Source: Nitrospirales bacterium (lineage in GTDB: Bacteria > Nitrospirota > Nitrospiria > Nitrospirales > UBA8639). From it: a stretch of 33,529 bases of DNA. Below are positions 142 to 28,121 of the stretch, one piece after another. Position numbers and translations under genes: made by a program. Each line of letters begins with the position of its first letter. Position 1 is the stretch's first letter. The stretch lies in contig BQIV01000046.1 in assembly GCA_021604005.1 (NCBI GenBank), positions 1 through 33,529 on the forward strand, written 5' to 3'. Below the pieces are notes generated by a model. That model had not been told where the DNA came from and made no database searches. It saw only the letters and a program-made list of their open reading frames with translations.

Positions 142-2013
142 TTGCATACGTTACTAAGTAACACTCTCCAAGAAAAAGTAAAGGATCTCGTTCCTAACCT
201 CGGTAAAAAATTGTTGCAAGCTGGGCCAATTATCAGCTCAGCTTTAGCACTAACACCTGCAGGCCCACTAGCAGCGCTAACAGGTCAATCTCTCGATTTT
301 GCAAAGCGATTCTTCCCGGAAGAAGACACATTAGAAAAAACATTTCAAAAGTTATCTGAAATTTTGGAAAGAGAAAAACGGCGATTTGTCATCATTGTCG
401 ATGATATTGATCGTTTGAGCCCTGATGAAGCTCTAGCAATATTTAGAGTAGTGAAATCTGTTGGACGCTTGCCGAATGTCATGTACTTGCTGGTATTTGA
501 CCGTGAACTAGCCGAAAAGGCAATTAAAGAAAGATATCCGTCTGAAGGCCCGCATTTTCTTGAAAAAATTATTCAAGCGAGCGTTGAAGTTCCTGTTCCG
601 CTACGTACTGACCTTAATCATGCTGTGCTTATGTCCATAGAAAAAATATGTGGCCCTTTGGATGAGTCAAAGAAGACTCGTATATTAAACAGCTTTTATG
701 ATGTTGTTGCGCCATATATTAATACACCAAGGCATGTCGTACGCTTTCAAAACGCAATTAGTGTTTCTTGGCCCGCTATAGCAAACGAGATTAGTTTGGC
801 CGACTTCATTGCTCTTGAAACACTCAGGTTATATGAGCCAAGTCTATTTCAAGCAATACGCTCAAACAAATCCAAGTTGTGTGGGTTGGATAGTCAAAAT
901 AATCCTAGAGCCGAAAATAAGTTTCTCTCTTTTCTTGATGATGTTCACGAAAACAAAAAAGATACAGCCAAATTGGCTTTACAGCGTTTGTTCCCAAGAA
1001 TGGAAGATATTAACTATGTAGAAGGTTTTCTCAAAAAATGGGATGCGGAACGTCGTGTTTGTATTGAGAAGCATTTTGATACGTATTTTAGGCTTTCATT
1101 AAGTAGTGAAGCTCTTTCTATAAAAAGAATTGATGAAATTATTGAGCATATTGATGAACCTGACTATGTTCATGAAATTTTCAGAGAGGCCGCTTTATCG
1201 CGAAGGCGTTCTGGTACTTCAATGATTCCGATTTTACTTGATGAGCTCATTACGCACGCGTCCAAAATAGAAAAAGGAAAAGTTCAACCGTTTTTAAATG
1301 CTATTTTTGAAATTCATGACGATATAGATTTGGATATTGACGAGGATAGAGGCATGTATGCAGTAGGTGATACCTCGCGACGCTATCATTGGCTTATTCG
1401 TAGTTTAACGCGTGATCGTTTTACAATAGCTGAGCGCACTGATCTTTATTTAGCAGCTACTCGAAATGCATCTTTGGGATGGCTTGTTGACTTTGTTTCT
1501 TCCGCCAAAAGCGATTATAGTGAACGTAAAGCGCCAAGAAGAGAAGAAGATTGTTTAATAAGGCAAGATGCTATCCAAGAGCTGGTTCAGCGCGCCGTAG
1601 CATCTATTCGATCAGCTGCGAGTGATAATCAACTGCTACTTCATCGGGATCTTCTTAGCATTTTGTATTTTTGGCGCGATTTTCTTGGGAATGATCCTGC
1701 TGAAGTAAGAATGTGGACCGATGCCTTACTTGATAATGGCGAGGCGCTCGTTATTTTAGCAAAAGCGTTTACTGGTGAATCTTGGTCTTATGCGCAAGGA
1801 GGCTTTGGCCGTCTTGGTGATAACGTTGCAACTCGAAATAGTACTGTAAGAATTGATGAGAATACTGATATCATTGACCAAGAGAAATTTAGATTAAAAC
1901 TAGAAGAATTACAGTCTAATGGACGTTTACAAGAAAATGATCAGAGATTGGTAGATGAATTTTTAAATACTTGGAAAAATAAGCTGGAAGTAAAAGACGA
2001 AGATATATTCTAA
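142..2013 (+). pseudogene. 5'-truncated KAP-family P-loop NTPase
   Basis: The 623 codons from a TTG at 142 carry a KAP-type Walker B region (FVIIVDDIDRLSPDEA, residues 82-97, acidic cluster at 87-90). It is followed by the sensor-like stretch NVMYLLVFDRELAEKAI, typical of KAP ATPases, which are found in membrane-linked and phage-defence settings. The Walker A loop (GxxxxGKS) that should lie N-terminal to this is absent, and the frame runs open back into the IS3 end, so the N-terminus has been lost. The long C-terminal half (roughly 200-620) is helical-looking with no domain I recognise. The gene is clearly more AT-rich than the following operon, which suggests horizontal acquisition. Without a P-loop it should not bind ATP normally. 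The TTG start is only the first available one and may not be used. Confidence 0.75.
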
Positions 2014-5717: not shown

Positions 5718-5800
5718 TATGGTTGATTGCGGTACTATGGCTGAATTACTGCACGTGTGACGAGACCGTCAAGAGTTGAGCCATTCATGAATTCTGAAAA

Positions 5801-5806
5801 AAGGAG
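5801..5806 (+). promoter_or_regulatory. Ribosome-binding site fixing the glnS start
   Basis: AAGGAG five bases upstream of ATG 5811. The reading frame is open further upstream to a GTG at 5757 and an ATG at 5787, but neither has a comparable site, so this SD decides the start. Confidence 0.8.
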
Positions 5807-5810
5807 CAAC

Positions 5811-7505
5811 ATGACCTCGGACAGTTCCTCAGGTTCCAAAGACTTTATTCGTACGCTGATTGCGCAAGATGTGAAGGCGGGAAAGCATGGAGGACGCGTA
5901 CATACGCGGTTTCCGCCGGAACCCAACGGCCATCTTCATATCGGTCATGCCAAGGCCATTTGTTTAAATTTTACTGTGGCAGAAGAACAGCACGGGCGCT
6001 ATAACCTCCGGTTCGATGATACCAATCCCAGCAAGGAACATGTCGATTATGTGACGTCGATCCAAGAAGATATCCGATGGTTGGGCTTTGATTGGGAAGA
6101 TCGATTATTTCACGCATCTGACTATTTTGAGCAATTGTACCAATTTGCGGTCAAACTCATTCGTGATGGAAATGCCTATGTTGACAGTTTATCGGCTGAC
6201 GAGATTCGTGCCAATCGAGGAACCTTAACCGAATCTGGGACGGACAGTCCGCATCGCATTCGTTCCGTTACCGAGAATCTTGACCTCTTCGCACGAATGC
6301 GTGCCGGAGAATTTGAGGATGGCGCGCATGTGCTTCGAGCCAAAATCGATATGACATCGCCCAATATCAATCTGCGCGATCCAACGCTTTATCGCATCCG
6401 CCGGGTACCCCATTATCGGGCCGGCAATGCTTGGAATATCTATCCAACGTATGATTTTGCTCACCCGCTCTCGGATTCACTCGAAGGCATTACACATTCC
6501 CTGTGTACGTTAGAGTTCCAGGATCATCGTCCGCTCTATGAATGGGTGTTGAACGCCTGTCAGGTTGACTGTCATTCGCAACAGATTGAGTTTGCGCGGC
6601 TCAACATGAATTATACCGTCATGAGTAAACGGAAGCTGCTGCAACTCGTCGATGAGGGGCATGTCTCAGGGTGGGACGATCCGCGCTTACTCACGCTAAA
6701 AGGATTGCGTCGTCGGGGCTACACGCCGGAATCTATTCGTACCTTTTGTGAACAAGTCGGAGTAGCCAAGCGTGACGGTATCATTGAAATGCCGGCATTG
6801 GAACATGCGATACGAGAAGATTTAAATCGACGGGCCTTTCGCGTGATGGCGGTGCTGCATCCCTTGAAAGTGATCATTGATAACTTTCCGGAAGGTCAGG
6901 TGGAAGACATGAATGCGGTGAACAATCCTGAAGATGCCGCTGCCGGTTCGCGGACCGTGCCTTTTTCTCGTGAACTCTATATTGAGCAGGATGACTTTCG
7001 TGAAGATCCACCCAAAAAGTTTTTCCGTATGACACCGGGACAAGAGGTTCGATTACGTTATGCCTATATCGTTCGGTGCGAGCGAGTTGTGAAGGATGAA
7101 CAAACCGGCGCAATTCTCGAAGTGCATTGTACCTACGACCCGGACACCCGAAGTGGAGGGCCGCAAGCCGGTCGAAAGGTCAAAGGCACGCTCCATTGGG
7201 TGTCAGCAGCACATGCGGTGTCAGCGGAAGTCAGGCTCTATGAATCCTTGTTTACGAAAGCCAACCCTGCTGAAGAGAAAAATGGTGTTGATTTTCGTTC
7301 GTATCTTAATCCTGATTCATTGCACATCTTACCGAATTGCCAAGTTGAGCCGAGTCTTGCTGATGCCAAGCCGGGAACGCCGTATCAATTTGAGCGGCAA
7401 GGTTATTTTTGTGTGGATTCTGATACGACAGCGGACAAGCTGGTGTTTAACCGTACCGTTGCCTTACGTGATTCTTGGGCCAAAATTGAGAAAAAATCGC
7501 AATGA
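5811..7505 (+). CDS. glnS: Glutaminyl-tRNA synthetase
   Basis: Class I aminoacyl-tRNA synthetase charging tRNA-Gln, 564 aa from the chosen start, close to E. coli GlnRS (554 aa). The HIGH motif is in [15 protein letters not shown] (residues 36-50) and the KMSKS-equivalent is VMSKR (270-274). The GlnRS-type context is [10 protein letters not shown] and, in the anticodon-binding half, the beta-barrel region with [16 protein letters not shown]. The GlnRS-type KMSKS variant and the C-terminal beta-barrels separate it from GltX. The presence of glnS implies direct glutaminylation of tRNA-Gln, although it does not exclude a GatCAB route elsewhere. It is divergent from ydbH. No operon partner is seen downstream. 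Confidence 0.97.
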
Positions 7506-12347: not shown

Positions 12348-12817
12348 AGTCTCACCGCCACTCTTTTATCGTTATATTCTTTGCAGCCCAAGACCCACTT
12401 AGCTGCGATTTGACGTGTTTTCCTATCCACTCCCTTCTTCTTTACCTCCTCTTTCTTACTTAACCGCAGCGTCGTTTTTCCAATATTCCATAGCCGAATC
12501 AATGAATAGCCGTACCTGTGGAGCGTATGATTCCGTTTAGAACGCCGCATGCTTGAACTGGTGCGTCTATACATCTCAGAGGTCGTCTAGAGTCTTGCAC
12601 CGTCTGTTTCCCTCGCTGAATACTCCTATCCAACAAGTGTCTCTAACGCAAAATATGTATGCAGCTTGTACAGCAAGATGAAGAGATCAGTAACAGCATG
12701 TAAGTGTTAAGAATATCAAGAAATCTCCGATGTATATATGGAGAGCCATGACTCAACCGATATTCAATAATGAGATAGCCACTTGTCTGAGGTGGGGAAG
12801 GGTGTGAATTGTAAGTT
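12348..12817. other. Gene-poor interval, 470 bp
   Basis: AT-richer than the flanking genes, with no supported coding frame. A 140-codon minus-strand frame (12152-12574) crosses it but looks like a shadow of the 42-aa gene plus random sequence. No repeats, strong hairpins or clear promoter boxes found. It serves as the leader of the large ATPase gene at 12818. Confidence 0.45.
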
Positions 12818-15346
12818 ATGAGCAAGCTTATTGATGCATTGAACCGGCTGCAATCACTTCGATCCGATGATGATCTGACTGAGTTGGACTCACTCCAGAA
12901 TCCGACGGAGAACTTTCAGGCGGCGCTCGTCTCTGCCGAGGATGTCGAGATTTCTCCGGACTTGCCGCCTGACTTACACGACCCTATCCAGCAGGAGAAC
13001 GGCCACGCCGCAGTCTCCCTGGAAATTAATCAACATGCGTGGCTAGAGATTGTCCGGCGGGAGTACTTGCAAGGCTATGTCCGCGATGGTGGAGGGACGG
13101 TGAAGTTTGTCGTGTTGCCCGATGCCGACAGTCATAAATCGTTTTCCGATGTCTTAGGGGGCAATGCCCACGAAGACGAGTTCGTGTTTGCCAAAGTGGA
13201 CGCGAAATATACCAAAGCCCACATGGTGGATCGTGTGTTTCACAAAGTGGCCAAGCAATTGGATTGGGATGAGTTGGCCTATGAGTATGTGGTGCGATTG
13301 CTTATTGAACATGGCTATCACGTGCCATCGCAGCGAAAAGAATTCACGTTACACCACGTCGCGACGCTTAATGAACGGAAGGAACCGTTATTGCGGCGGG
13401 ATCTGCAAACCTGGCTGGAAGAAACGATTGAAGGCGATGCCAATCTGTGCCGTGAATTTCGGATGGCCATCATCCGGCTGTGTTTGGCGCAACTGGAAAG
13501 TGGCGAATCCGATCGTGTGTTAGGTAATGCGGTGAAAGAGTGGCTGTGCGGCGAACTTCGCTTGATCTCAGGCGTGAAGAAAGCCCTGATATTTCAGAAA
13601 ATCGTTCGTCATAATGCTCGTTATATGCTGTCGTCCTTGACGCACTGGCTCCGGCTTTCCGGAAAACGCGGACTCATCATTACCCTGGATATTTCACGGT
13701 ATCTTGTTGCCAAACGGCCTGCCGAGCCCGACCGGACGTTGTATTATAGTCCCACCGCCGTGCTTGATCTGTACGATATGCTTCGGCAATTTATCGATAC
13801 CTCCGACGAATTAGAAGGCTTCATGATGGTCGTGCAGGCTCCCCCAGAGTTTTTGACTGATCCCAAGCGAGGCGTTGACCGTTATGAGGCGTTGAAACAT
13901 CGTATTTGGGATGATGTGCGAGACAAGCATCGTCAGAACCCATTGGTCCCGCTCGTTCGATTATCGCCAACGTCTGCTTCTTTGGCGTCATTACCTGCTG
14001 GAGAAGCTGTTATATCTGTGACCGACAATGAAACCTTGATGGCCAGACGGGTTATTGAAGGTTTGCGTGCAGGGGTGCCCAATAGTCATGTTGTGAAGAC
14101 GTTAGGGTGTTCGCAAGGAGAAATTGAGTGGCGTTTCCGGCGTTTATTGGAAGGGACGCAACAGAATACTGCGACGGGTCAGTGTTCCAAGGGGCTCATT
14201 GTAGAAGGGAGTTTCGGAAGCGGAAAGTCCCATGTGTTGGAATATTTGCAACATGTCGCCTTAGAGTCGAACTTTATCTGTAGCCGAGTGGTCATTAGCA
14301 AGGAAACGCCGCTGTATCATCCTGTGCGCATGTTTCATGCTGCGGTTGAATCGGCTGTCATTCCCGATAAAAAAGGGGAATTGCTCTCGGAGATTGCGAG
14401 CCAGTGCGACTCGTGGGATCCGAAGTATAAAAGTTTGTCGACGTGGGTGAATAGCGTAGACAGTGGAATTGACCCGCGATTTGCGGCAACCCTGTTTCTG
14501 TATGAACGGATGGGCACGGATCAAGAGTTGGGGCATCGAATGACCCGATTTTGGACGGGCGATCCGCTGGGAGTCGGAGAACTCAAGAAGTATTTAAAAG
14601 AATGTGGCATTGCCGGACGTTATACGTTTGGGAAAATTTCACAGGCTGAACTTGCCTCGCAACGATTTCAATTTACGTCGCGTTTGGTCCAAGCGGCGGG
14701 GTATGCCGGGTGGATTGTGCTTGTCGATGAAGTCGAGGTTATGGGGCGTTATTCCGTTAATCAACGAGCCAAGTCCTATGCGGAATTGGCTCGATTGGTC
14801 GGTGGGCAAGATACGCGTAGCTATCCCGGCATTGGCGTGGTTGTCGCATTGACGGATGATTTCCAGAAAGAGGTGTTGGAGGGAAAAGGGGATATGGTGA
14901 AAATTCCTCAACGTCTCAGGGCTGTGTCATCGGACGAGAACATGACGTTAGCCGAACAGGCCGAAATAGGAATGAATCTGGTCGAGTCTCGACGAATTCC
15001 GATCGAAGCACCAACGGAACCATTGATTCAACAGACACATCACACCATTCGTACTCTTCATGTGCAAGCCCATAACTGGCGTGATTGGGATCATTCTGCG
15101 GTGGCCCCGCATATAGAGGTTCAAGCTGGAACCCGGATGCGGGAATATGTCAAAAGCTGGATCACAGAATTAGACTTGAAGCGTTTGACTCCTGATGAAG
15201 TTGTTGAAATTGAAGTGGATAATCTGAAGCCTCATTATGAAGAGGATCGCGTGTTAGCCACGGTGAGTCAGGATGACTCGAATCAGGCCAGTGTTGAAGG
15301 GCCTGAAGGGCCAGTCGAGTCTCCTGAAGGTCATGAAGCTTGTTAA
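12818..15346 (+). CDS. Tandem BrxC/BrxD-like P-loop ATPase (DUF2791-type), first module degenerate
   Basis: An 842-aa cytoplasmic protein with two modules that read like the BREX ATP-binding family (DUF2791). The second (about 440-750) is complete: Walker A GSFGSGKSH with Lys 470, then VVISKETPLYHP, and Walker B WIVLVDEVEVM with Asp 637/Glu 638, followed by RAKSYAELARLVGG. The first (about 70-410) follows the same order (GGGTVKFVV, then FVFAKVDAKY, later RHNARYMLSSLTHWLRLSG). However, the P-loop position reads PDADSHKS (Lys 107) and the Walker B position reads GLIITLDISRYL, with Asp 291 followed by Ile where Glu is expected. So it looks like a pseudo-ATPase fused to an active one. The first 65 residues are acidic and probably flexible; the C-terminal 25 are too. 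No PglZ, BrxA, BrxL or methyltransferase gene is nearby, so BREX function should not be assumed. The start at 12818 has only a weak ribosome-binding site. Confidence 0.7.
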   Translation: MSKLIDALNRLQSLRSDDDLTELDSLQNPTENFQAALVSAEDVEISPDLPPDLHDPIQQENGHAAVSLEINQHAWLEIVRREYLQGYVRDGGGTVKFVVLPDADSHKSFSDVLGGNAHEDEFVFAKVDAKYTKAHMVDRVFHKVAKQLDWDELAYEYVVRLLIEHGYHVPSQRKEFTLHHVATLNERKEPLLRRDLQTWLEETIEGDANLCREFRMAIIRLCLAQLESGESDRVLGNAVKEWLCGELRLISGVKKALIFQKIVRHNARYMLSSLTHWLRLSGKRGLIITLDISRYLVAKRPAEPDRTLYYSPTAVLDLYDMLRQFIDTSDELEGFMMVVQAPPEFLTDPKRGVDRYEALKHRIWDDVRDKHRQNPLVPLVRLSPTSASLASLPAGEAVISVTDNETLMARRVIEGLRAGVPNSHVVKTLGCSQGEIEWRFRRLLEGTQQNTATGQCSKGLIVEGSFGSGKSHVLEYLQHVALESNFICSRVVISKETPLYHPVRMFHAAVESAVIPDKKGELLSEIASQCDSWDPKYKSLSTWVNSVDSGIDPRFAATLFLYERMGTDQELGHRMTRFWTGDPLGVGELKKYLKECGIAGRYTFGKISQAELASQRFQFTSRLVQAAGYAGWIVLVDEVEVMGRYSVNQRAKSYAELARLVGGQDTRSYPGIGVVVALTDDFQKEVLEGKGDMVKIPQRLRAVSSDENMTLAEQAEIGMNLVESRRIPIEAPTEPLIQQTHHTIRTLHVQAHNWRDWDHSAVAPHIEVQAGTRMREYVKSWITELDLKRLTPDEVVEIEVDNLKPHYEEDRVLATVSQDDSNQASVEGPEGPVESPEGHEAC

Positions 15347-15730
15347 TCGTGTGACGGTTTTGGTCATTCCTCCCGTATTGAACTCAATGCCTACCGTATG
15401 GGTCCTTCCCGGAAGCCTTCGAGAGCAAGAACGGTCTCTCTGGGGCTTCTGAGGTTTAGGGCCATCAGTCAGTCGTCTCTCGCCGCAAAGAACTGGTTAG
15501 TGTTATGCTGGGATGTGTATAGATGGTCGAGTGTACGCACGTCTTTCACCCAGCAATTCCCTCATTGACCGTGATGGTGTAATGGCCGGGCTGTACAACT
15601 GCCGGTTATGACAACCACATCATTCTTGACCATTCTTCTCAGCATCTCACCCCTCGTATCTCGACCGCGAGTCTTGAGCTTCTAGAGCATTGTGTGTATC
15701 AGTGATGTCCTGAGGGAAATAGGAGTGCAT
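15347..15730. other. Gene-poor interval, 384 bp, with an imperfect hairpin after the ATPase gene
   Basis: No gene supported. About 70 bp after the ATPase stop an imperfect hairpin is visible (AAGCC-ttc-GAGAG ... CTCTC-tgg-GGCTT, about 15413-15450). It may slow or end transcription, although no clean T-tract follows. The rest is leader sequence for the membrane protein gene, with AGGAG at 15721-15725 as its ribosome-binding site. Confidence 0.4.
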
Positions 15731-17062
15731 GTGTCATCGATGACAACCTTGTCTCAAACAGAATCGTCGCTTCGTCTTCGAAAGGTATTTGAGCTGTGGT
15801 GGCCTCTGGCTGGAAGTTGGGTGCTCATGGGCATTGAACTTCCTATTGTGAGCGCGGTCATGGCTCGACTGGCTGATCCCGAAGTGCATCTCGCGGCATA
15901 CGGAGGTGTGGTCTTTCCGATCGCGCTTATTATCGAAGCTCCGGTCATTATGCTGCTGGCGGCCTCAACGGCGCTGTCTCGAGATTGGACGTCGTATGTG
16001 TTTCTTCGCCGGTTTATGTTTCAGATGTCCGGGGTTCTGACGGTGCTTCATATCCTCGTTGCGTTTACGCCGTTGTATGATGTGGTGGTTGCCGATGTTC
16101 TCCATGTTCCTGAACCGGTTCGCGAGCCGGCTCGAATCGGACTCATGCTCATGACGCCCTGGACGGGTGCGATAGCCATTCGGCGGTTTCAGCAAGGTGT
16201 CATCATTCGATATGGTCAGACTCGGTCCATTGGTCTGGGAACGGCATTGCGATTATTCGTCAATGTGTCCATTTTAGGATGTGGACTTTATTGGGGGACG
16301 ATTCCTGGTATTGTCGTGGCGACTATTGCGGTATCCTTGGGCGTATTAACAGAAGCGGTTGTCGTGAATCGCATCGTTCAGCCACTTTTGCTGCGAATGC
16401 AAGCCGAACACTATTCCCTTTCGTCGCCGTTGACATTGGGTCGTCTGCTGCGATTTTATGTTCCGCTGGCAATGACGTCATTTCTTGCGCTTATCGCGCT
16501 ACCGATTGGCAGTGCGGCCTTGAGCCGCATGCCCCGTGCCTTGGACTCATTGGCCGTGTGGCCTGTGATGGCTGGACTGTCATTTACGCTACGCAGCCTC
16601 GGATTAGCCTTTCAAGAAGTGGTTGTCGCGCTGGTTGGGAAGCCAGGGGCTAAAGCCATACTCGGTCGGTTTGCGATTGGCCTGGGGCTCACGACGAGCA
16701 CGCTGTTGTTGCTCATTGCGGCCACGCCGTTGGCTCGCCTGTGGTTTGGAGAAATTGCAGGTTTGTCACCCGAGTTAACGGAGTTAGGCTGCCAGGCAAT
16801 CTGGTTGGCCGTGTTGCTGCCGGGGTTAAGCGCCGTAGAAAGTTTTTTGCAAGGCTCACTGGTACACAGTCATCAGACGAAAAGCATTACCGAGGCTGTG
16901 GCCATATATCTTGTCACAAGCACTTCAATCTTAATGGCCGGCACCTATTACGGGCAGATCGCCGGGCTGTATGTCGGGCTATTGGGTGTGAGTTCTGGGC
17001 TTTTGTGCCAGACGCTCTGGTTGTGGTATCGGAACGCCTCTACTGCTCAAATTCCAGAGTAG
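15731..17062 (+). CDS. ANKH/MATE-like multidrug/oligosaccharidyl-lipid superfamily membrane protein
   Basis: A polytopic inner-membrane protein of about 443 aa with roughly 12 hydrophobic segments. The early motif FELWWPLAGSWVLMGIELP and the internal repeat LLRFYVPLAMTSFLALIALP show the two-bundle duplication of MATE-type carriers. The phrasing of both motifs and SLAVWPVMAGLSFTLRS are closest, in my recollection, to bacterial relatives of the ANKH (progressive ankylosis) transporters rather than NorM. The substrate cannot be deduced; small anions, drugs or lipid-linked molecules are all possible. The start at GTG 15731 is preferred because AGGAG ends five bases before it; GTG 15692 and ATG 15740 are alternatives. 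It is separated by 384 bp from the upstream ATPase gene and is probably transcribed alone. Confidence 0.75.
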   Translation: MSSMTTLSQTESSLRLRKVFELWWPLAGSWVLMGIELPIVSAVMARLADPEVHLAAYGGVVFPIALIIEAPVIMLLAASTALSRDWTSYVFLRRFMFQMSGVLTVLHILVAFTPLYDVVVADVLHVPEPVREPARIGLMLMTPWTGAIAIRRFQQGVIIRYGQTRSIGLGTALRLFVNVSILGCGLYWGTIPGIVVATIAVSLGVLTEAVVVNRIVQPLLLRMQAEHYSLSSPLTLGRLLRFYVPLAMTSFLALIALPIGSAALSRMPRALDSLAVWPVMAGLSFTLRSLGLAFQEVVVALVGKPGAKAILGRFAIGLGLTTSTLLLLIAATPLARLWFGEIAGLSPELTELGCQAIWLAVLLPGLSAVESFLQGSLVHSHQTKSITEAVAIYLVTSTSILMAGTYYGQIAGLYVGLLGVSSGLLCQTLWLWYRNASTAQIPE

Positions 17063-17342
17063 GCGACCTGATTTGGCACGTTGAAGGCAAGCCACGCTTT
17101 TCACCAGACGGCAAACCTTAAGTCGCCAGGGACTGTAGGGGAAAGTATACTTCCAAGACCAAAGTGAATGGTTGAGCCTTCACCTGCTTTGTTCGATACA
17201 TGCATGGCTGACAATTGTAAGGTATTGAAACATCGCATGAAGTAGGGATATGTGTTCTTTTTAATAAGGCGGTATATCATTTGCTTAATTTACCTACTGT
17301 ACGTGTGTTGGAGTACGGCCTTGACGGAAGGAGTAGGGGGGG

Positions 17343-17723
17343 GTGGAGCGAATCTTAGTGATTGACGGTGATGAGTCCGTCAGAGATTCTTTGACCTTAA
17401 CTCTGGAGTGGGCTGGCTACGATGTATCGGAAGCTGCGAGTCCACGAGAAGGTTTTGCGTTTCACCAGGAAAACCCTGCCACTGTTGTCGTGGCCAATGC
17501 GTTGAATGTCGATGAAGATGGCTTAGCGCATCTGCAAGCTCTTCGGCGTCATTCGCCCACGTTGCCAATTATTGCCATGTCGGGATCTCTTCCCTCAAGC
17601 GATCAGGAATCTCAATCTCTCCAGAACATCTTCGGCTCTGTTTACCGTTTGCAAAAGCCATTTACGGTCGATGAATTTCTTGCAACGGTCCAAACAGCCC
17701 TTCCTAGATTAGCGCATTCTTAA
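17343..17723 (+). CDS. Stand-alone response-regulator receiver domain with Asn at the phosphorylation site
   Basis: A 126-aa single REC domain with no output domain. It keeps the fold's landmarks: ERILVIDGDESVR at the start, the switch Ser in IIAMSGS (Ser 80), and the conserved Lys in LQKPF (Lys 105). At the phospho-acceptor position, eight residues before the conserved Gly 60, it has Asn 52 (VVVANALNVDEDG) instead of Asp. The acidic pair at the end of strand 1 is also altered (D-G-D rather than D-D). It is therefore probably a pseudo-receiver, working by binding rather than by His-Asp phosphotransfer. The start is GTG 17343, with AAGGAG about a dozen bases upstream. No histidine kinase is adjacent, so the partner is unknown. 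Confidence 0.85.
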   Translation: MERILVIDGDESVRDSLTLTLEWAGYDVSEAASPREGFAFHQENPATVVVANALNVDEDGLAHLQALRRHSPTLPIIAMSGSLPSSDQESQSLQNIFGSVYRLQKPFTVDEFLATVQTALPRLAHS

Positions 17724-17857
17724 TTCTCTCTTGTCCCCTCTTTGCATTTGGATATCTTGGGGTTTGCCCCTTATTATGTATTTTGTTAAGGAGTTGGGTA
17801 TCATAATGGTTGGAAATAGATAGATTTTACATTCCCTTTGTTTAGGCTTATCTTTTG

Positions 17858-18055
17858 TTGAAGCTAACGGACTCCCACGCCAAGTTCTACGCCTATGAAC
17901 TCACGAAACGCTGTCCTTCCGGTAGTATTGAAAAGCGGACCAGTGCGCTAATCGATGTGCGGGTCGATCGCAATCTTCACTCCCCCAAAATAAGCTCTCA
18001 ACAGCTATTTGTCATACGCTGGCAAGTACGGTAAGGGAGTGATTTTCTTCTAGGC
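17858..18055 (+). pseudogene. N-terminal remnant of a SNF2-family DEAD/DEAH helicase
   Basis: From TTG 17858 the frame reads MKLTDSHAKFYAYELTKRC, then PSGSIEKRTSALIDVRVDRN, ending in a stop at 18032. This matches the start I remember for large SNF2/RapA-like helicases (HAKYFAYELTKRCPSDSVEKLA...AQVDLNPHQV). The downstream bases CGCTGGCAAGTACGGTAAGG, followed by GAGTGATTTTC in another frame, still resemble the next family segment (FRSPLSKGVIL), so at least one frameshift is present. The ATPase motifs are missing altogether. It is a decayed leftover of a several-kb gene. Such helicases are common in defence islands, in keeping with the adjacent abiE genes. Confidence 0.6.
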
Positions 18056-18136
18056 AATCTCTAGTTCATTGTAGATCCTGAATAACAAAGTATACTTGTG
18101 AAATTTGACTAGACAGAAACTTTCTATTGACTCTAT

Positions 18137-18165
18137 TTGCACGAAGTTTATTTTTGATCTATATT
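18137..18165 (+). promoter_or_regulatory. Probable sigma-70-type promoter giving a leaderless abiEi transcript
   Basis: TTGCAC (18137-18142), a 17-bp AT-rich spacer, then TATATT (18160-18165). The -10 box ends only seven bases before the AbiEi ATG at 18173, so transcription would be expected to begin at or next to the A of the start codon. No ribosome-binding site is present before that ATG, which fits a leaderless mRNA. Confidence 0.5.
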
Positions 18166-18172
18166 AACAATA

Positions 18173-18946
18173 ATGTCTTTTTATAAAGGAAGTAAAATAA
18201 ACCAAATACTCAAAAAGTGGCCGCATAGTACGGTGGCAGTATTGTCATGGCTGGAAAAGCAGGGAGCTTATCAGCAACTGATGCGTGAGTATGAAAAGAC
18301 CTCATGGGTGAGGAGAGTTGGACGAGGGGCCTATGTCAGAGAAGGCGAGCAAGTCGAGTGGACAGGCGGACTGTATGCGCTTCAAGAACAATTAGGACTT
18401 CCCATACACATAGGTGGAAAAACCGCACTGTCATTTCAGGGATACGCGCATTTTTTTCCAATGGGAAAAAACATAACGGTCACGCTGTTTGGCTTTCCCA
18501 ATGTCAAACTTCCTCTGTGGTTCAAAGAGTATCGTTGGGAGGTCAAAATCCGATATACCACAACCAACCTGTTCATGAGCCGAGACAAACATGGCCTCAC
18601 ACAAAAAGATATGGGCTCCTATGACGTCAGACTGTCAACACCTGAGCGGGCTGTTATGGAGATGCTGTATGAGGTCCCACAACGAGAATCGTATGAAGAG
18701 GCCAAGCTCATAATGGAAGGGTTAACGACCTTACGCCCACGACTAGTTCAAGCGTTGCTTGAGGACTGCATGTCAGTAAAGGTCAAGCGCCTGTTCATGG
18801 TACTGGCCGAAACCTGCAAATACGCGTGGGTAAAAAAGCTTGACCTATCACAGGTGGCCTTTGGCAAAGGGAAGCGTATGTTAGTCAAAGGCGGACGGTT
18901 GAACCCTACATACCATATCACGGTGCCGAAGAATCAGATGGGTTGA
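18173..18946 (+). CDS. AbiEi family antitoxin / transcriptional regulator (type IV TA)
   Basis: A 257-aa protein of the AbiEi family. An N-terminal winged-helix region (about 1-60) contains VLSWLEKQGAYQQLMREYEK and WVRRVGRGAYV. It is followed by the AbiEi core with LPIHIGGKTALSFQGYAHF and VRLSTPERAVMEMLYEVPQ. In known systems AbiEi binds inverted repeats in its own promoter to repress the operon, and it counteracts the AbiEii nucleotidyltransferase without direct complex formation. Here the partner gene directly downstream carries a premature stop, so this may now be an antitoxin without a working toxin. The start ATG at 18173 has no SD but lies right after a good promoter. Composition is slightly more AT-rich than the neighbours, typical of transferred TA genes. 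Confidence 0.85.
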   Translation: MSFYKGSKINQILKKWPHSTVAVLSWLEKQGAYQQLMREYEKTSWVRRVGRGAYVREGEQVEWTGGLYALQEQLGLPIHIGGKTALSFQGYAHFFPMGKNITVTLFGFPNVKLPLWFKEYRWEVKIRYTTTNLFMSRDKHGLTQKDMGSYDVRLSTPERAVMEMLYEVPQRESYEEAKLIMEGLTTLRPRLVQALLEDCMSVKVKRLFMVLAETCKYAWVKKLDLSQVAFGKGKRMLVKGGRLNPTYHITVPKNQMG

Positions 18947-18966
18947 GCGGCGGCCGGAGTAAGGAC

Positions 18967-19887
18967 GTGAAAAAAAGCCCCTACTTCAAACAAGTGGAGT
19001 TAATTCTGCAAACAATTCCGCACATCGCAACGGAAACAAGCTTTGCGCTGAAAGGCGGAACCGCGATCAATCTCTTCGTGCGGGACATGCCATGACTGTC
19101 TGTGGATATTGACCTGGCCTATTTACCACGGGATGAGCCACGCGACACGGCTCTGAACAAGATCAGTGAGGCACTCCGCCGCATCGCTTCCACGCTAAAG
19201 AAAGCCATGCCTGGCGTCAAAACCCAGGAAAGTCGAGCACAAGAACCACAGCGGACCACAAAGCTGGTAGTGGCAAACAGCCAGACACGAATCAAAATCG
19301 AGCCGAACGAGGTGCTTCGAGGTTCGGTCTTTCCACCCGAAGAACGGGAGCTGACACCACGCGCGGAAGGCATGTTTGAGCGTTCGGTGACGGCATGTGT
19401 GCTTTCAACCCCGGATCTGTATGGTGGCAAGATCTGCGCAGCATTAGACCGCCAGCATCCACGGGATCTCTATGACGTAAAAGTTCTCCTTGAACAAGAA
19501 GGGTTGACGGATGAGATACGCAAAGCTTTTGTCGTCTATCTCGCCAGCCATGATCGGCCTATAAGCGAGCTGCTCGCCCCCACAAGGAAGGAGATACGGC
19601 AGATCTATGAACACGAGTTCGTCGGCATGACCATTGATACGGTCTCCTACGAAGATTTACTCGAAGCCAGAGCGCACCTCATTGCAACACTGAGGAAAGA
19701 ATTAACCGATGACGAGAAGACCTTTCTCCTTTCGCTCAAAAAAGGTCATCCAAACTGGAGCCTCCTGGGCGTCGAAGGAATAGAGAAGCTGCCAGCTGTA
19801 CAATGGAAATTGAAAAACATTCACAGCATGCACGAAAAGAAACATGCCGAGGCACTGGAAAAACTCAAAAAAGTTTTGGCGTATTGA
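18967..19887 (+). pseudogene. AbiEii nucleotidyltransferase toxin interrupted by an in-frame TGA
   Basis: The full frame runs from GTG 18967 (GGAG and AAGGA just upstream) to 19887, 306 codons, and is the usual second gene of an abiE pair, 20 bp after abiEi. Codons 1-42 give KKSPYFKQVELILQ and the nucleotidyltransferase motif FALKGGTAINLFVRDMP. Codon 43 (19093-19095) is TGA where the family has Arg (PRLSVDIDL), consistent with a CGA-to-TGA change. After it the same frame continues with LSVDIDLAY (the DxD catalytic pair) and later with DLYGGKICAALDRQHPRDL, the third conserved motif. Everything else is intact, so the lesion is recent. Without readthrough, the GG motif and the DxD motif end up on separate polypeptides, so the toxin should be dead. 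A start at GTG 19102 would give a 261-aa product lacking the GG motif. Confidence 0.85.
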
Positions 19888-20080: not shown

Positions 20081-20548
20081 TTAATCACTTGGCGGTTCGA
20101 AATGTCCTGGTATGCGGTTTTGCCAGGGAACGGTGGCGGTCTTTGCCTGTTTCAGTAGGCTTTTGAGGTTTACTTCTGCAGCTCGCAAAAGTTTTGGTTC
20201 TCCGCTTTGAAGAAGTGCGGTGAGGAGCGAGTACATGTCGCGTTGTTCCTGAGGCGAATGGGCGATGAGTTCTAGAATGGGGTCTGGGGAATCTACATTT
20301 GTCCAATCACTATCTTTCTCGTCAGGGTAACCTAAAAGGAGATTGATTGCGGTTGGATTACTATAGAGCCAGCCTGGCGGTATACCAAGTGCAGTCGCCA
20401 ATGCTTCAAGTCGTGAGGCTGGAGGATCCAATTCACCGGCTTCGATGGCTTCAAGCTCTGTTGAAGGCATGCCGACTTTTTTGGCTAATCCCGTCACGGA
20501 ATTTCCTCGCATGCGCCGCCAGGCCTGAATGTATTCATTGATAGGCAT
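20081..20548 (-). CDS. XRE-family helix-turn-helix regulator
   Basis: A 155-aa protein with an N-terminal XRE/Cro-type HTH (about residues 5-62). Its pattern is IQAWRRMRGNSVTGLAKKVG, then PSTELEAIEAGELDPPASRL and LEALATALGIPPGWLYSNP. The remainder (about 65-155) is a helical tail with no enzymatic motif. It lies downstream of dnaE on the same strand, 163 bp away, so it may be read through from the imuB-dnaE operon or have its own promoter. Whether it regulates that operon, the AbiE remnant or something else cannot be told from sequence. No good ribosome-binding site is visible before the ATG. Confidence 0.85.
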   Translation of the reverse strand: MPINEYIQAWRRMRGNSVTGLAKKVGMPSTELEAIEAGELDPPASRLEALATALGIPPGWLYSNPTAINLLLGYPDEKDSDWTNVDSPDPILELIAHSPQEQRDMYSLLTALLQSGEPKLLRAAEVNLKSLLKQAKTATVPWQNRIPGHFEPPSD

Positions 20549-20711: not shown

Positions 20712-23700
20712 TTATGATATTTCACGTTTGCAAGGAGATGATCCTTTTCGAACAACGGCCTCGTTAAATATGGAGAACCGGGAAGACATGTTGCTGGAAA
20801 GCGTGCGAATTTCCTTGACGATCAATGAATAGGTTTGAAATTCTTCCTCAATGACACCATCCAGAATGTATGGGCCATGATTGGTTAAGAGATGACCAAA
20901 CTGCCGGTACGTTTTCGGGAAAAACGTGGCTTCATACAATCCTGTTTTATCTTCAAAGGTCACGAATTCCATGGGTTCCTGGCGTTTCGTCTGAACGGAT
21001 TTTTCGGTGATCATCCAGCCGATCATCGTAATGGGTTGTCCAACATGCAGGTGTATGTCGCAGGCTGACACAGCATGTAACCCTTGAAGCGCTTCTTCAA
21101 ACAATTCGAGTGGATGTGTGTTGAGCGGGAATCCGAACAGTTCAATCTCATGTTGAATTTTTTGACTTGGAGCGTAATCTGGTGGAATGGGAAGCGCCGA
21201 TGAAACGTGAGGGGTGAGAAGTGAGGCGTGAAAATCTGAACCATGTGGGCCGGGTGAAACATGGGTGGAGTGAGTGTATGGCATGTGACGACTGAACCCT
21301 TGCTGTGCATGATGAGCATACAGGCGCCAGAGGAGGCCTGGACGTGTAACGTCTCCTGCAACACTATCGAAACATCCGGCTTTGATTAATGTCCGGGTGT
21401 GGGCTTGCTCTCCCTTCGTGCGGATCAGAAAATTCTGCAATGATCGAAATGGGCCATGTTGAGTTCGTTCCTTGAGAAGATGAGCGATCATATCGGCTTT
21501 CAGCCCTTTGATGTGCATGAAGCCCATGCGAAGGGTTTTGCCGATTCCCACATATTCCCAACAACTGGCATTGATGTCTGGCAGTACAATGGTCAATCCC
21601 ATACGACGGGTTTCCGAGAGATAGGCAAATGGAGAATAGAACCCGCCTTGATTGTTGAGCACGGCTGCCATGAATTCTGCGGGATAATAGGTTCGAAGGT
21701 AGGCGGATTGAAACGAGACTTGTGCATAGGATGCGGAATGAGGCTTACAGAAACTGTATCCCGCAAAACTCATGATCATGTTCCACATCGTGGCGATCGC
21801 CTGTTCCGACGCTCCGTTGGCGGCAGCTCCACGAGAGAATTGCACATGATAATCCTGGAGCTGTCGTTCCTTGTGCTTTTTACTCAGGATTTTTCTGAGT
21901 TGATCCGCATCTTCCACTGAAAAGCCTGCCACAGCCATCGCGACTCGTGTCACATCTTCCTGGTACACCATAATGCCGTGAGTGTCGGCTAACACTTTCT
22001 CGAACATCGGGTGAATCGGTTGATGTGTCTCACCATGGGCACGCAGCACGAAGCCCCGGTTGTAGGGGTTGCCTGCCGGACGAACGAGAGAGGACACCAT
22101 GACGACATAATCGAAAATATCGAGCGTTGATTGTCGTGTCTTGGTCATGGCTTTCCACAGTTTTCTCAGCAACAGACGCGTGGCGGGCGATTCGATATAA
22201 AAGCATCCGATCGTATCGGTCTGACGAATTAACTCTTGAGTCCGGGGATCATGAATAGGATCCCATGATGTGTGGGTAAGACGTCGTTCCGTATGAACCG
22301 CGACGGCATCAAGCGCATCTCGAATCACGGCGAGCGAACGATTCCCTAAAATGTCGAGTTTGACGAGGCCGGCATCTTCGGCTTGATCTTTTTCCCATTG
22401 GATAACGGGCACACCTTTGGGTGCAATTTGGATTGGGACATAACGTTGAATCTCACCCGGAGCGATGATGACTCCGCCACAATGAACGCCGAGATGTTGC
22501 AAGCATCCTTTGAGGCGGAGTGCGACAGAGAGTATTTCCGGCCATGGTTCAGCTATTCCGATGGCTTGGCAAATGTTCTCTGCCCAGGAGCGTAACGTGT
22601 GGGTTGCCGGAGAGGGATGGAATGCTGTCTGACGTACAAGTCGTGGCATCAATCGATTGAGTTCGGCTGGAGCCATGCCGTACACCTTGGCGACCTCGCG
22701 AATTGCCGCGCGGAAGCCAAGCGTGTTGTGGTTGGCCACCATGGCGGTTTGACGAGTGCCGTATTTTGCGAAGATATAATCCAGAATACGATCCCGTTCA
22801 TCCCACGGAAAGTCAATGTCGATGTCTGGCGGATCTTGTCGTCCGGCATTCAAAAACCGTTCAAAAAACAAGTTATGACGAATCGGGTCGACATGCGTGA
22901 CGCCTAGGCAATAGGAGACGATGGAGGCGGCCGCCGACCCCCGGCCACATGTACGTGGCGCTTGCTGGACGATGTCTTCGACGATTAAGAACCACATGGC
23001 AAATCCTTTTGAACGAATCACGTCCAGTTCAGTCTCGATTCGTGTTCGGACTTCATCGGAAATTTTCCCGTATCGTTGTCGGGCGCCTTCGTATGTTTTG
23101 GCTTGGAGGGTGGAAAATGTTTGTGGATCTGTTCGGTCACGAAAGGCTTGCTGCATTCGAGCCTTGAAATTCCATTCGGTGTGGCAGCGGTCGGCAAGAC
23201 GACTGGCGTTGAGCAGTGCATGCGGAATATGCACATAGTGCGGTTCCAGAGCTGAAACCGGGGCAAGCCATTGGTGACGGGAACAGTGAGCGTCTGGCGG
23301 CAGTTGAGACAGCGTGGTTTTCAAGGCAATGGCGCGTAACGCACGATGAAGATGAAAACCTTTAGCATCAACAAAATGCACGCGATTGGTTGCGACTGGG
23401 GGAATCCCTGTCCGCCGGCTCAATGCCACGGCTTGATGCATCATGACTCCCGGTGTCAATTCAACATAGAGATTGTGCCGTTTTCGCTTTTTCCATGCTG
23501 TCAGAGCGGGAATATCATCGGACAAAACAAGAAGATCCCGATAATGCTGGCTCACGGTTTCAATGAAATCAAAGTCATCATGACAGTGCCGGGCCGACAG
23601 GATGCGACAGAGGTTTGTATAGCCAGTCATGGTCGTTGCGAGTAATGTGGCTCGGTGATGCTGGTGAGTAAGCTCAGCCCCGAGAATCGGTTTGAGCCCT

Positions 23701-23873
23701 GCCCGCTTGGCTGTTTCCACGAATCGAACAGCGCCATATAGGCCATTGGTGTCGGTGAGTGCGAGCGTGTCGGCTCCATGAGACTTGGCCGTAGCACACA
23801 ACTCCTCCAATGAAGACACCCCGGACATGGGTGAATAATTAGAATGGACGTGCAGATGAACGAAGGGTGGCAT
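20712..23873 (-). CDS. dnaE2: DnaE-type (DnaE2-like, error-prone) DNA polymerase III alpha subunit
   Basis: A C-family replicative-type polymerase of 1,053 aa from the chosen start. Domains in order: PHP (HLHVHSNYSPMSG at 6-18); palm with the catalytic PDIDIDF (Asp 352 and 354) and the third Asp in LVKLDILGNRSL (Asp 507); the helix-hairpin-helix region near FSVEDADQLRKILSKKHK; and a C-terminal OB fold (MIGWMITEKSVQ ... MEFVTFEDKTGLYEATFFP). All polymerase carboxylates are present. Coupling with an inactive Y-family polymerase identifies it as the mutasome DnaE rather than the main replicase. Its ATG at 23873 lies inside the 3' end of imuB (35-nt overlap) after a G-rich site, giving translational coupling. 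The frame is open 18 codons further up, but those lie deeper in imuB and look unlikely. Confidence 0.9.
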   Translation of the reverse strand: MPPFVHLHVHSNYSPMSGVSSLEELCATAKSHGADTLALTDTNGLYGAVRFVETAKRAGLKPILGAELTHQHHRATLLATTMTGYTNLCRILSARHCHDDFDFIETVSQHYRDLLVLSDDIPALTAWKKRKRHNLYVELTPGVMMHQAVALSRRTGIPPVATNRVHFVDAKGFHLHRALRAIALKTTLSQLPPDAHCSRHQWLAPVSALEPHYVHIPHALLNASRLADRCHTEWNFKARMQQAFRDRTDPQTFSTLQAKTYEGARQRYGKISDEVRTRIETELDVIRSKGFAMWFLIVEDIVQQAPRTCGRGSAAASIVSYCLGVTHVDPIRHNLFFERFLNAGRQDPPDIDIDFPWDERDRILDYIFAKYGTRQTAMVANHNTLGFRAAIREVAKVYGMAPAELNRLMPRLVRQTAFHPSPATHTLRSWAENICQAIGIAEPWPEILSVALRLKGCLQHLGVHCGGVIIAPGEIQRYVPIQIAPKGVPVIQWEKDQAEDAGLVKLDILGNRSLAVIRDALDAVAVHTERRLTHTSWDPIHDPRTQELIRQTDTIGCFYIESPATRLLLRKLWKAMTKTRQSTLDIFDYVVMVSSLVRPAGNPYNRGFVLRAHGETHQPIHPMFEKVLADTHGIMVYQEDVTRVAMAVAGFSVEDADQLRKILSKKHKERQLQDYHVQFSRGAAANGASEQAIATMWNMIMSFAGYSFCKPHSASYAQVSFQSAYLRTYYPAEFMAAVLNNQGGFYSPFAYLSETRRMGLTIVLPDINASCWEYVGIGKTLRMGFMHIKGLKADMIAHLLKERTQHGPFRSLQNFLIRTKGEQAHTRTLIKAGCFDSVAGDVTRPGLLWRLYAHHAQQGFSRHMPYTHSTHVSPGPHGSDFHASLLTPHVSSALPIPPDYAPSQKIQHEIELFGFPLNTHPLELFEEALQGLHAVSACDIHLHVGQPITMIGWMITEKSVQTKRQEPMEFVTFEDKTGLYEATFFPKTYRQFGHLLTNHGPYILDGVIEEEFQTYSLIVKEIRTLSSNMSSRFSIFNEAVVRKGSSPCKREIS

Positions 23874-25071
23874 GTGTGTTCCCCCACCAAATCGCTTGTG
23901 CCCCGAATCGTGCTCGAATCTGATCAAGGGCCAGTGTTAAGCGGTGTGATTTTTTTTGTACAAAAGGTTCTGGAATGAGTGCTTCTTGAAATAGTTCGCC
24001 TTGCTCGATGAATGTGGTGAGGTGTTCCGCGTGTATGGCGAGGCGACTGATTCGGACCCGGCGTTTGAACATTCGTGCAAGCAGCGTTGTGGCATAGGGG
24101 AACAGGTCCACTTCCCAGTAGGTTCCCGGTGTCACGGCGTGCGCTTTCGCCATTTCTATTCCGTCACGATACTGAAATTCGACTCTGATCGCGTGGCACA
24201 TTCGTTGTTGATGCCGTAACTGCCGACAGACTTCTTCGAGGAGCCCATACAACGCACTATGGAGTCGATGGATATCGATGTCATCGGAATCGAGTTTCAT
24301 GGTCGCTTCAATCTGTGGTTGTTGGGGTGGGCAGAGAACGGGGGATGAGTCTGTGCCATGTGCCCAGGCATGCAGGGACCGGGCATGTTGTCCCAGTACT
24401 ATTTCAAGGTGGGCGAGTTCAATGTCTGCAAGATCGTGTAATGTCTGGATATTCAAATCAGACAATAACGGCAAGATTATCTTCGTATGATGGGGGCTAA
24501 ACGGTAAGGTCTGAATGGGAAGTGGTGCCAGAAAGGCTTCTTCAGAGCCATGATGAATGTCGCACAGGCGTGGAGGCGTGACGACTGTTGATGCAATCCG
24601 TGCGACGAGTTTGTTGCTGGCCAATCCGGCAACTCCCACGAGTCCATATTGCTGTGCGATGTCTCGTTTAATTCGCATGGTGGCATCACAGGCCAATCCA
24701 AAGAGACGTGTGGTGCCGGTCAGATCAAAAAAGAACTGACCAGGTTGAATCGGTTCCCACACTGGGGAATATTGCCGGATGGTGTTTACGAGTGCATGGT
24801 GAGCTTGCCGAACTTGAGCGCGACGTGGAGGCAGAATGTGGAGCGACGGACATTGCTGACGAGCCTGTGCGACAGAGAGGCCAGGCAAGACGCCGTCTTG
24901 CTGGGCTTCTTGTGACACTTCAGTAATGGGTGCTCGAGCGGCTGGTGAAACCGAAACAGCAACCGGCCGTGTTTGTAATGAAGAGTCGTCTAGGCGCGCG
25001 AGAGCGATGGAAAACGTGGGAATAGAAAAGCAGGCAATATGACGATCCATCGTTCGAGCAAGCCCTTTCAT
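23839..25071 (-). CDS. imuB: ImuB-like, catalytically inactive Y-family polymerase
   Basis: A 410-aa DinB/UmuC-like protein. The fold is evident from YSPVWEPI...FFFDLTGT (102-120), VAGLASNKLVARIAS (147-161), the helix-hairpin-helix part LLSDLNIQTLHDLADI and the tail LTLALDQIRARFG (378-390). The catalytic acids are gone: the motif expected as VDMDAFF reads FSIPTF (16-18 are Ser-Ile-Pro), and SLDEAYLD reads QPGQFFFD (Gly 111 and Gln 112 replace Asp and Glu). ImuB proteins are known to be inactive hubs that bind the sliding clamp, ImuA and DnaE2. QGELF (357-361) in the little-finger position could be the clamp-binding peptide. There is no imuA upstream. The start at 25071 has no clear SD; an in-frame ATG at 25050 is an alternative. 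Confidence 0.85.
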   Translation of the reverse strand: MKGLARTMDRHIACFSIPTFSIALARLDDSSLQTRPVAVSVSPAARAPITEVSQEAQQDGVLPGLSVAQARQQCPSLHILPPRRAQVRQAHHALVNTIRQYSPVWEPIQPGQFFFDLTGTTRLFGLACDATMRIKRDIAQQYGLVGVAGLASNKLVARIASTVVTPPRLCDIHHGSEEAFLAPLPIQTLPFSPHHTKIILPLLSDLNIQTLHDLADIELAHLEIVLGQHARSLHAWAHGTDSSPVLCPPQQPQIEATMKLDSDDIDIHRLHSALYGLLEEVCRQLRHQQRMCHAIRVEFQYRDGIEMAKAHAVTPGTYWEVDLFPYATTLLARMFKRRVRISRLAIHAEHLTTFIEQGELFQEALIPEPFVQKKSHRLTLALDQIRARFGAQAIWWGNTHATLRSSARPF

Positions 25072-27626: not shown

Positions 27627-28121
27627 ATGAAAAAGGAAATATTCTACTACGTGCTTCAGAGTCCGGTCGGCAGATTACTGCTTGTCGGAGATCATGGCGG
27701 ATTACAGCGGTTACAGTTTCAGGATGGTACGCATCCGCATCCCATCGAATCCGGATGGAAGAAAGATCGAAATTTTTTTAACCGGATCATTTCCCAATTG
27801 GAAGAATATTTCGACGGAAGACGAAAACGATTTTCCATCAAACTGTCTCAGCAAGGCACGGGCTTTCAGCAGCAAGTGTGGAAGGCTCTTCGAACGATTC
27901 CGTACGGCGAGACCGTATCATATAGTACGATCGCGCGCGCGATCGGGAAACCCACTGCCTCACGTGCCGTGGGAGCTGCAAATGGACAAAACCCCATTTC
28001 GATCATTGTTCCCTGCCATCGGGTGATCGGAGCCAATGGCCAATTAGTCGGTTACGGTGGCGGGTTGCCGATTAAGCAGTCACTGCTTGCGCTGGAACAG
28101 CAATATTGTGGGAAATGTTGA
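27627..28121 (+). CDS. ogt: Methylated-DNA--protein-cysteine methyltransferase (Ogt/MGMT)
   Basis: A 164-aa suicide DNA-repair protein that moves the alkyl group from O6-alkylguanine to its own cysteine. The active site IIVPCHRVIGANG has Cys 130. The DNA-binding helix-turn-helix region FQQQVWKALRTIPYGETVSY and the Arg finger region (ASRAVGAANGQNP) are both intact. Length fits stand-alone Ogt without the AdaA domain. The start ATG 27627 follows the TIGR03790 stop by one base, implying co-transcription. It ends convergently with the Nudix gene. A repeat block lies in between. Confidence 0.95.
   Translation: MKKEIFYYVLQSPVGRLLLVGDHGGLQRLQFQDGTHPHPIESGWKKDRNFFNRIISQLEEYFDGRRKRFSIKLSQQGTGFQQQVWKALRTIPYGETVSYSTIARAIGKPTASRAVGAANGQNPISIIVPCHRVIGANGQLVGYGGGLPIKQSLLALEQQYCGKC

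Follow-up and report, generated by a model that had tools for sequence, protein, structure and literature searches.

A fused pseudo-ATPase and ATPase of the BrxC/BrxD family in Nitrospirales and its split two-gene relatives in other phyla

The fused gene and its neighbourhood

We analysed a stretch of 33,529 nucleotides from a Nitrospirales bacterium (the whole of which is called the window here), in which a gene of 842 codons with an ATG start encodes a pseudo-ATPase half followed by an ATPase half, referred to below as dead and live, respectively (Table 1). The protein matched PF10923 (BrxC_BrxD) with an E value of 2.1e-36 and 126 bits, exceeding the curated Pfam cut-off of 22.2, and the match consisted of three stretches that together covered both halves. 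The strongest stretch lies in the first half (aa 88-386, onto profile positions 44-335) and, as the alignment ends at position 335 of 414, this half comprises a core domain that lacks the end of the profile. The NCBIfam BrxD model (NF033438) aligned best with the second half (aa 409-720, E 1.3e-30), the protein scoring 106.8 bits versus the curated 350 of this equivalog, and PADLOC matched the protein to BrxD (9e-31) and to Shango SngB (E 5.9e-15). An earlier note, made from the sequence alone, had proposed two BrxC/BrxD-type modules in one chain, which these matches confirm; its description of the first copy as degenerate (PDADSHKS, and Ile292 in the Walker B strand) was exact, and the motifs of the second copy (GSFGSGKS and LVDEVE) are intact, as it had stated. 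The first half, whose failure to match a P-loop fold would have spoken against that proposal, matches a P-loop family.

Structure prediction of both halves, which the note had suggested, yielded an AlphaFold2 model (91-row alignment) with a pLDDT of 88.5 and a pTM of 0.87, in which each half shows alternating strands and helices, and residues 16-63 and 821-842 are disordered. The first of these regions is a linker that follows the N-terminal helix and extends to about residue 63; a pattern search of the genome found a MSKLIDALNRLQ-type protein start in this single case. The structures closest to the live half were TnsC, archaeal ORC/Cdc6, and BrxC of Acinetobacter (Z 10-12), with BrxC 9zdx as the top Foldseek match (E 8e-4), and a PDB sequence search with the fused protein gave no meaningful match. 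Promoter and terminator scans of positions 12500-18200 of the window remained near chance level.

Table 1. Features of the fused gene and of its conserved neighbours (positions in the window; aa numbering of the 842-aa protein)
Feature	Position	Strand	Basis
Fused pseudo-ATPase and ATPase gene, 842 aa, ATG start	12818..15346	+	ORF, profile searches, AlphaFold2
N-terminal helix MSKLIDALNRLQ, present in A-clade orthologues	12818..12853	+	Alignment; AlphaFold2 helix aa 2-14
Pseudo-ATPase half, aa 67-390, BrxC/BrxD core without AAA+ lid	13016..13987	+	PF10923 profile; hhalign to plasmid ATPase1
Degenerate Walker A PDADSHKS, aa 101-108, in P-loop place	13118..13141	+	Motif alignment
Degenerate Walker B TLDISR, aa 289-294, Glu replaced by Ile292	13682..13699	+	Motif alignment
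Retained box-VII-like motif RGVDRYEALKHRI, candidate arginine finger Arg362	13868..13906	+	Y.AL..R in 77/77 dead domains
Active ATPase half, aa 401-842, with lid	14018..15343	+	NCBIfam BrxD stretch 409-720; hhalign to plasmid ATPase2
Intact Walker A GSFGSGKS, aa 464-471, Lys470	14207..14230	+	Motif alignment
Intact Walker B LVDEVE, aa 635-640, Asp637 and Glu638	14720..14737	+	Motif alignment
Live-half region with box-VII motif lost, TDDFQKEVLEGKGD	14852..14893	+	Motif alignment
Glutamine-tRNA ligase gene, conserved upstream neighbour of orthologue	5757..7505	+	Profile search, locus comparison
Membrane carrier gene, conserved downstream neighbour in two genera, putative partner	15692..17062	+	Profile search, locus comparison
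Receiver-domain protein, Asn at phospho-acceptor, conserved neighbour, putative partner	17343..17723	+	Profile search, locus comparison
HTH protein, neighbour conserved across g1 and g9	20081..20548	-	Profile search, locus comparison

Orthologues of the window gene that carry the MSKLIDALNRLQ-type N-terminal helix form our class A. In genera g1 and g9, where the copies are 56-60% identical to the window protein, class A genes have glnS upstream and the carrier, receiver, and HTH genes downstream. This shared order (gene - carrier - receiver - HTH) would suit a functional unit of the fused gene with the membrane carrier and the receiver, both of which the earlier note had put forward as possible partners. 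However, gaps of 345 and 280 bp separate these genes, the arrangement is missing at the A-type copies of three genomes (G006, G010, and G015), and the window receiver lacks the phospho-acceptor Asp, so that we consider such a unit improbable. The neighbourhood conservation across 12818-17723 that the note had suggested checking was found in g1 and g9, and was absent from those three genomes. The receiver carries Asn in the window versus Asp in orthologues such as L042, L032, and L046, and the loss of the Asp is possibly recent.

The window also holds an AbiEi/AbiEii type IV toxin-antitoxin pair (18173-19887, + strand) directly downstream of the carrier/receiver block and preceding DnaE-like polymerase and ImuB-like genes. 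These two genes, for a DnaE-type DNA polymerase III alpha and for a Y-family (impB/mucB) polymerase, make up an error-prone repair cassette (20712-25071, - strand). An O6-methylguanine methyltransferase gene is found at 27627-28121, and a KAP-family P-loop NTPase (623 aa, weakly matching QatA) is encoded at 142-2013 (+ strand).

Split relatives and reciprocal motif loss

A genome scan with the live half revealed at least 141 relatives, and models for C2, dead, and live proteins were run on the ORFs of the 80 loci that were returned. Among the matches listed, the order C2 (~265 aa) - dead (~320 aa) - live (~425 aa), with each as a separate gene, occurs in about ten phyla, including Nitrospirota, Actinomycetota, Acidobacteriota, Chloroflexota, Bacillota, Myxococcota, Thermodesulfobacteriota, Armatimonadota, and Spirochaetota; Entotheonella has adjacent dead and live genes and no called C2. 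This split two-gene form in many phyla supports the earlier likening of the fused protein to a hetero-dimer-like machine joined in one chain.

Further genes follow the pair at many of the split loci, and since some loci are cut by contig ends, their counts are lower bounds: (i) F3 (~188 aa, no Pfam match) lies downstream at at least 13 of the 59 split loci listed; (ii) an SNF2 protein does so at at least 19; and (iii) another SF2 helicase, F6, at at least 10 (Actinomycetes and one unplaced bin), with one or the other helicase 3' of the pair at at least 29 of the 59. Among the matches listed, none of the 19 fused loci has an SNF2 gene beside the fused gene. An Mrr_cat nuclease domain forms the C-terminal end of some SNF2 proteins (at L105, SNF2 3.6e-44 and Mrr_cat 2.2e-26), and the best PADLOC match of the SNF2-Mrr protein was ZorD. 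The Acidobacteriota loci comprise the three-gene core alone with no helicase nearby, and the helicase link is therefore not universal. The C2 structure model reached a pLDDT of 92.8 and found no PDB match by Foldseek at E 0.001; the C2 VIA rows span the N-terminal helical hairpin alone, and PADLOC has no model for C2 or F3. In the flanks of split loci, PADLOC detected scattered defence genes versus a few in the control. Among phages we obtained no match to the fused protein, and among plasmids distant matches only. A search of published open-access papers returned no literature on a pseudo/active BrxC/D-type pair or on the C2 - dead - live cluster, the layout of which is apparently undescribed.

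Several split loci have features of their own. The Dethiobacter cluster (L093:1421-7102) lies beside an apparent DUF1156-type methyltransferase and a PLD-type helicase, and its flank scan also matched DUF3780, which would fit a Type-2 BREX-Related locus; among the flanks scanned, BREX-Related-type genes are probably present in this one Dethiobacter locus. In three actinomycete loci (L128, L135, and L142), C2 is preceded by an extra gene, F22 (~530-700 aa, no Pfam match in L128), and the live ATPase is followed by an SF2 helicase, which in L128 is PbeA-like. In genus g4 (L038:4944-8176 and L039:5251-8444), a DSHCT/Mtr4-like helicase, apparently split over two ORFs, is encoded divergently upstream of C2 - dead - live.

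A four-gene plasmid module gives polarity to these comparisons. Aulosira laxa plasmid3 and Desulfomonile pDESTI.01 encode a 279-aa protein, ATPase1, ATPase2, and a helicase, in that order. In hhalign comparisons, the dead half matched ATPase1 at E 2.2e-16 and ATPase2 at 0.053; the live half matched ATPase2 at E 8.1e-19 and ATPase1 at 1.5e-15. The module thus resembles our pair in gene order and in the correspondence of ATPase1 to the dead half and of ATPase2 to the live half; it differs in that its genes are split, both ATPases carry Walker A and B (in ATPase1, P-loop and Walker B are both intact), and the helicase is another one (BrxHI/SngC-like in Aulosira). By these alignments, the dead subunit is the orthologue of plasmid ATPase1 and, because it matches an intact ATPase in the same gene order, it most likely descends from an active subunit. 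C2 and the Aulosira 279-aa protein align weakly and colinearly (P 0.0025), a relation that is suggestive at most. On the Aulosira plasmid (L083:1078-12972), a PglZ - BrxD - helicase module stands immediately before the 279-aa protein - ATPase1 - ATPase2 - helicase genes.

We compared the motifs of dead and live domains in an alignment that also held BrxD, SngB, ATPase1, and ATPase2 rows. Among the matches listed, the P-loop (Walker A) was found in none of 77 dead domains and in all 80 live domains, the latter figure being biased because the live P-loop was one of the two scan patterns; the second scan pattern had no P-loop, and the dead-domain counts are independent of the P-loop pattern. Six DE pattern matches occurred in dead domains, all of them off the Walker B strand. 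Conversely, YxALxxR was found in 77/77 dead domains and in 1/80 live domains among the matches listed; the single live-domain match falls in an unrelated helix, and the rate in shuffled live sequences was 0.003. The fuller motif, (K/R)xG..xYxALxxR(I/L), follows the sensor-1 strand; SngB and most BrxD rows carry it, and a looser version (Gly and second Arg retained) occurs in BrxD of Aulosira and in both ATPase1 rows; ATPase2 and all live domains have no box-VII-like motif at that position. As in a composite-site AAA+ pair, Walker A is therefore missing from one partner and the arginine motif from the other. The position of YxALxxR fits that of the arginine finger of ORC/Cdc6-type AAA+ proteins, making the box-VII arginine (Arg362) a candidate finger by motif comparison.

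From the reciprocal loss and the motif position, we infer one composite ATP site per dead/live pair. The C-terminal live half would bind and hydrolyse ATP; the N-terminal dead half would not bind ATP and, having retained YxALxxR, most likely supplies an arginine finger that would complete the live half's site, in cis or between adjacent chains, with the fusion setting the dead:live ratio at 1:1. We consider it likely that the dead half donates its arginine finger in this way. It is less probable, and in our view fairly unlikely, that the dead half is a mere scaffold or a DNA/partner-binding platform beside an ordinary homo-oligomeric live ATPase whose arginine finger lies elsewhere. The dead half does retain further invariant residues (Y17, G25, G26, K30, W84, W176, and G179; A11), so that conservation of the motif is by itself no proof of a catalytic role; on the other hand, all dead domains have kept the motif and all live ones have lost it, and a version of it occurs in the single-type relatives BrxD, SngB, and ATPase1. 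Taking donation of the finger as the preferred reading, the best explanation of the whole, which we favour with reserve, is that the gene product is an obligately asymmetric AAA+ ATPase made of two ancient subunits fused together. The naturally split pair with its reciprocal loss offers a clean test of whether BrxC/BrxD-type ATPases work as asymmetric machines of the ORC/Cdc6 kind, with the finger supplied in trans, and the fused form provides one handy chain for biochemistry.

Fusion history, selection and present role

Across 59 genomes, the window's own included, fused-protein matches were found in 25, all from the window's own family. In addition to class A, these comprise class B, in which one or two fused genes are preceded by C2 (~290 aa, no Pfam match) and followed by a histidine kinase and a response regulator. 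The kinase in G001 consists of Tll0287-like, HisKA, and HATPase domains, and at L041, L048, and L049 a spacer of 9-24 bp separates the fused gene from the start of the kinase. In a Nitrospirales lineage, the fused ATPase has thus come into a signalling context. The class A gene and the class B operon are ~35 kb apart in several genomes (L032-L034 and L035/L045 of g9; G011) and ~8 kb apart in G015.

When 78 dead+live concatenations were placed in a tree, the fused proteins all fell into a single clade (38 rows, support 100) that adjoins split forms of Bacillota and deltaproteobacterial lineages, and within which A, B1, and B2 are separate supported clades. This topology indicates that the fusion is a single event in Nitrospirales. 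The helicase was lost with it. In genus g4 (L038, L039, and L040), the halves are separate genes after C2 and cluster with Entotheonella and Chloroflexota, a grouping that points to acquisition by transfer. What looked like a separate fusion in L166 proved to be an artefact of ORF calling; the dead domain there is actually encoded in another frame.

Of the C2 - pseudo-ATPase - ATPase - F3 - SNF2/Mrr cluster, the window gene carries the dead and live domains. C2 is single copy and beside class B in genomes that have B, and was not found in the window's genome or in A-only congeners; F3 was present in G027 only among the 59 genomes, and was not found in the window's genome. That genome encodes a general SNF2 helicase (1225-aa frame) on another contig (G000:C4), the match to which stops before the Mrr region; since this SNF2 core is common to most genomes checked, it is not a dedicated partner. 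With C2, F3, and SNF2-Mrr all lost, nothing else of the ancestral cluster is left in the window lineage, and its gene is a descendant of the pair rather than a full system.

Both halves are under strong purifying selection. More specifically, dN/dS against three congeners (dS 0.9-3) was 0.048-0.063 for the dead half and 0.038-0.048 for the live half, with the N-terminal extension evolving faster (0.13-0.21). Because dN/dS is low and the dead state of the first domain is kept in 77/77 homologues, the dead and live arrangement is not due to chance, and the dN/dS values rule out a pseudogene. Although all other ancestral-operon parts are gone from the genome, as would be expected of a decaying remnant of a defence system, we consider such decay extremely improbable: both halves show a dN/dS of 0.04-0.06 with dS at about 1 or higher, the orthologue frames are open, and the live-half catalytic motifs are intact.

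BrxD has been described as an ORC/Cdc6-type helicase-associated ATPase for which helicase loading or activation is proposed, its role being called uncharacterised (PMC12839542), and Shango (a TerB protein, an ATPase, and a helicase) blocked phage when tested (PMC10250203). The ancestral operon would have had the order C2 - dead - live - F3 - SNF2 helicase, with or without the Mrr nuclease. If ORC/Cdc6 and the relation proposed for BrxD and BrxHI are a guide, the two ATPases would be seated on nucleic acid, where they would load, position, or switch an effector. Ancestrally this effector would be the SNF2 helicase/nuclease, and the whole a defence-like machine in the style of BREX or Shango. 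We lean slightly towards helicase loading and an ancestral defence role. In Nitrospirales, the effector genes have gone and the ATPase would have been re-used: one branch was duplicated beside C2, a Tll0287-type histidine kinase, and a response regulator, and the window branch kept a single, vertically inherited gene with an added N-terminal helix, which probably acts on another partner.

The conserved position, single copy, and strong selection point to housekeeping or regulatory re-use of the window gene rather than defence, and we place its present exapted role at about even chances. Its homology to BrxD and SngB, the general SNF2 helicase on G000:C4, and the AbiE toxin-antitoxin pair nearby would all accord with a component that still acts against phage, in trans with a general cell helicase or nuclease. 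We nevertheless give this little credence, given that the gene is single copy with conserved neighbours and strong purifying selection, that the genome lacks C2, F3, and the nuclease, and that an SNF2 core found in most genomes checked provides no dedicated partner. Returning to re-use, our overall scenario is tentative and somewhat short of even: a widespread defence-like system, in which a split-site AAA+ pair drives an SNF2/Mrr effector, may have been fused once in Nitrospirales, which dropped the effector and domesticated the pair in a two-component branch and in a core-like branch.

The earlier interpretation of the fused gene is thus partly supported as a whole, and the ancestral operon, the reciprocal motif loss, and the paralogues linked to a two-component system go beyond it. 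BrxC/BrxD-type ATPases are parts of many defence systems and their mechanism is unsettled; the C2 - pseudo-ATPase - ATPase - F3 - SNF2/Mrr cluster adds a new candidate to these systems, one that spans many phyla, and in the Nitrospirales branch a defence-type ATPase may have been put to another purpose.

Comparison with known systems

ORC/Cdc6 and clamp-loader hetero-AAA+ complexes consist of complementary subunits, some of which do not bind ATP, with an arginine finger supplied in trans. The dead/live pair resembles them in its complementary subunits and in its structural match to archaeal ORC/Cdc6 and TnsC, the similarity being at fold level only (Z 10-12) and implying no origin or clamp function.

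Neither PglZ nor another PF10923 protein over the cut-off was found in the window's genome, which agrees with the earlier statement that no BREX locus is present and rules out BREX of any type or a BREX remnant. No full BREX locus lies beside orthologues either, the closest case being the distant homologue on the Aulosira plasmid, beside PglZ, BrxD, and a helicase. BrxD, the Type-2 BREX ATPase, shares Pfam family PF10923 and is an AAA+ protein of the ORC/Cdc6 kind, and its gene adjoins an SF2 helicase gene (PMC12839542), as the live gene's locus does in part of the split loci; in contrast to the two complementary domains of the fused protein, BrxD is one self-sufficient ATPase.

Likewise, Shango SngB is a homologous ATPase (E 5.9e-15), and the Shango operon also pairs an ATPase with a helicase. 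Shango has one ATPase and a TerB protein, whereas the ancestral operon has two ATPases, C2, and often an SNF2 or other SF2 helicase. In the window, two SngB/BrxD-like domains lie in one chain with the carrier and receiver as neighbours, and no TerB or helicase was detected among the window proteins scanned.

Finally, BREX is itself a defence system in which an inactive NTPase, BrxB (iSTAND), goes with an active one, BrxC. BrxB, however, comes from a different family, as an inactive STAND NTPase (PMC12839542), whereas in the fused protein both members belong to the BrxC/BrxD family.
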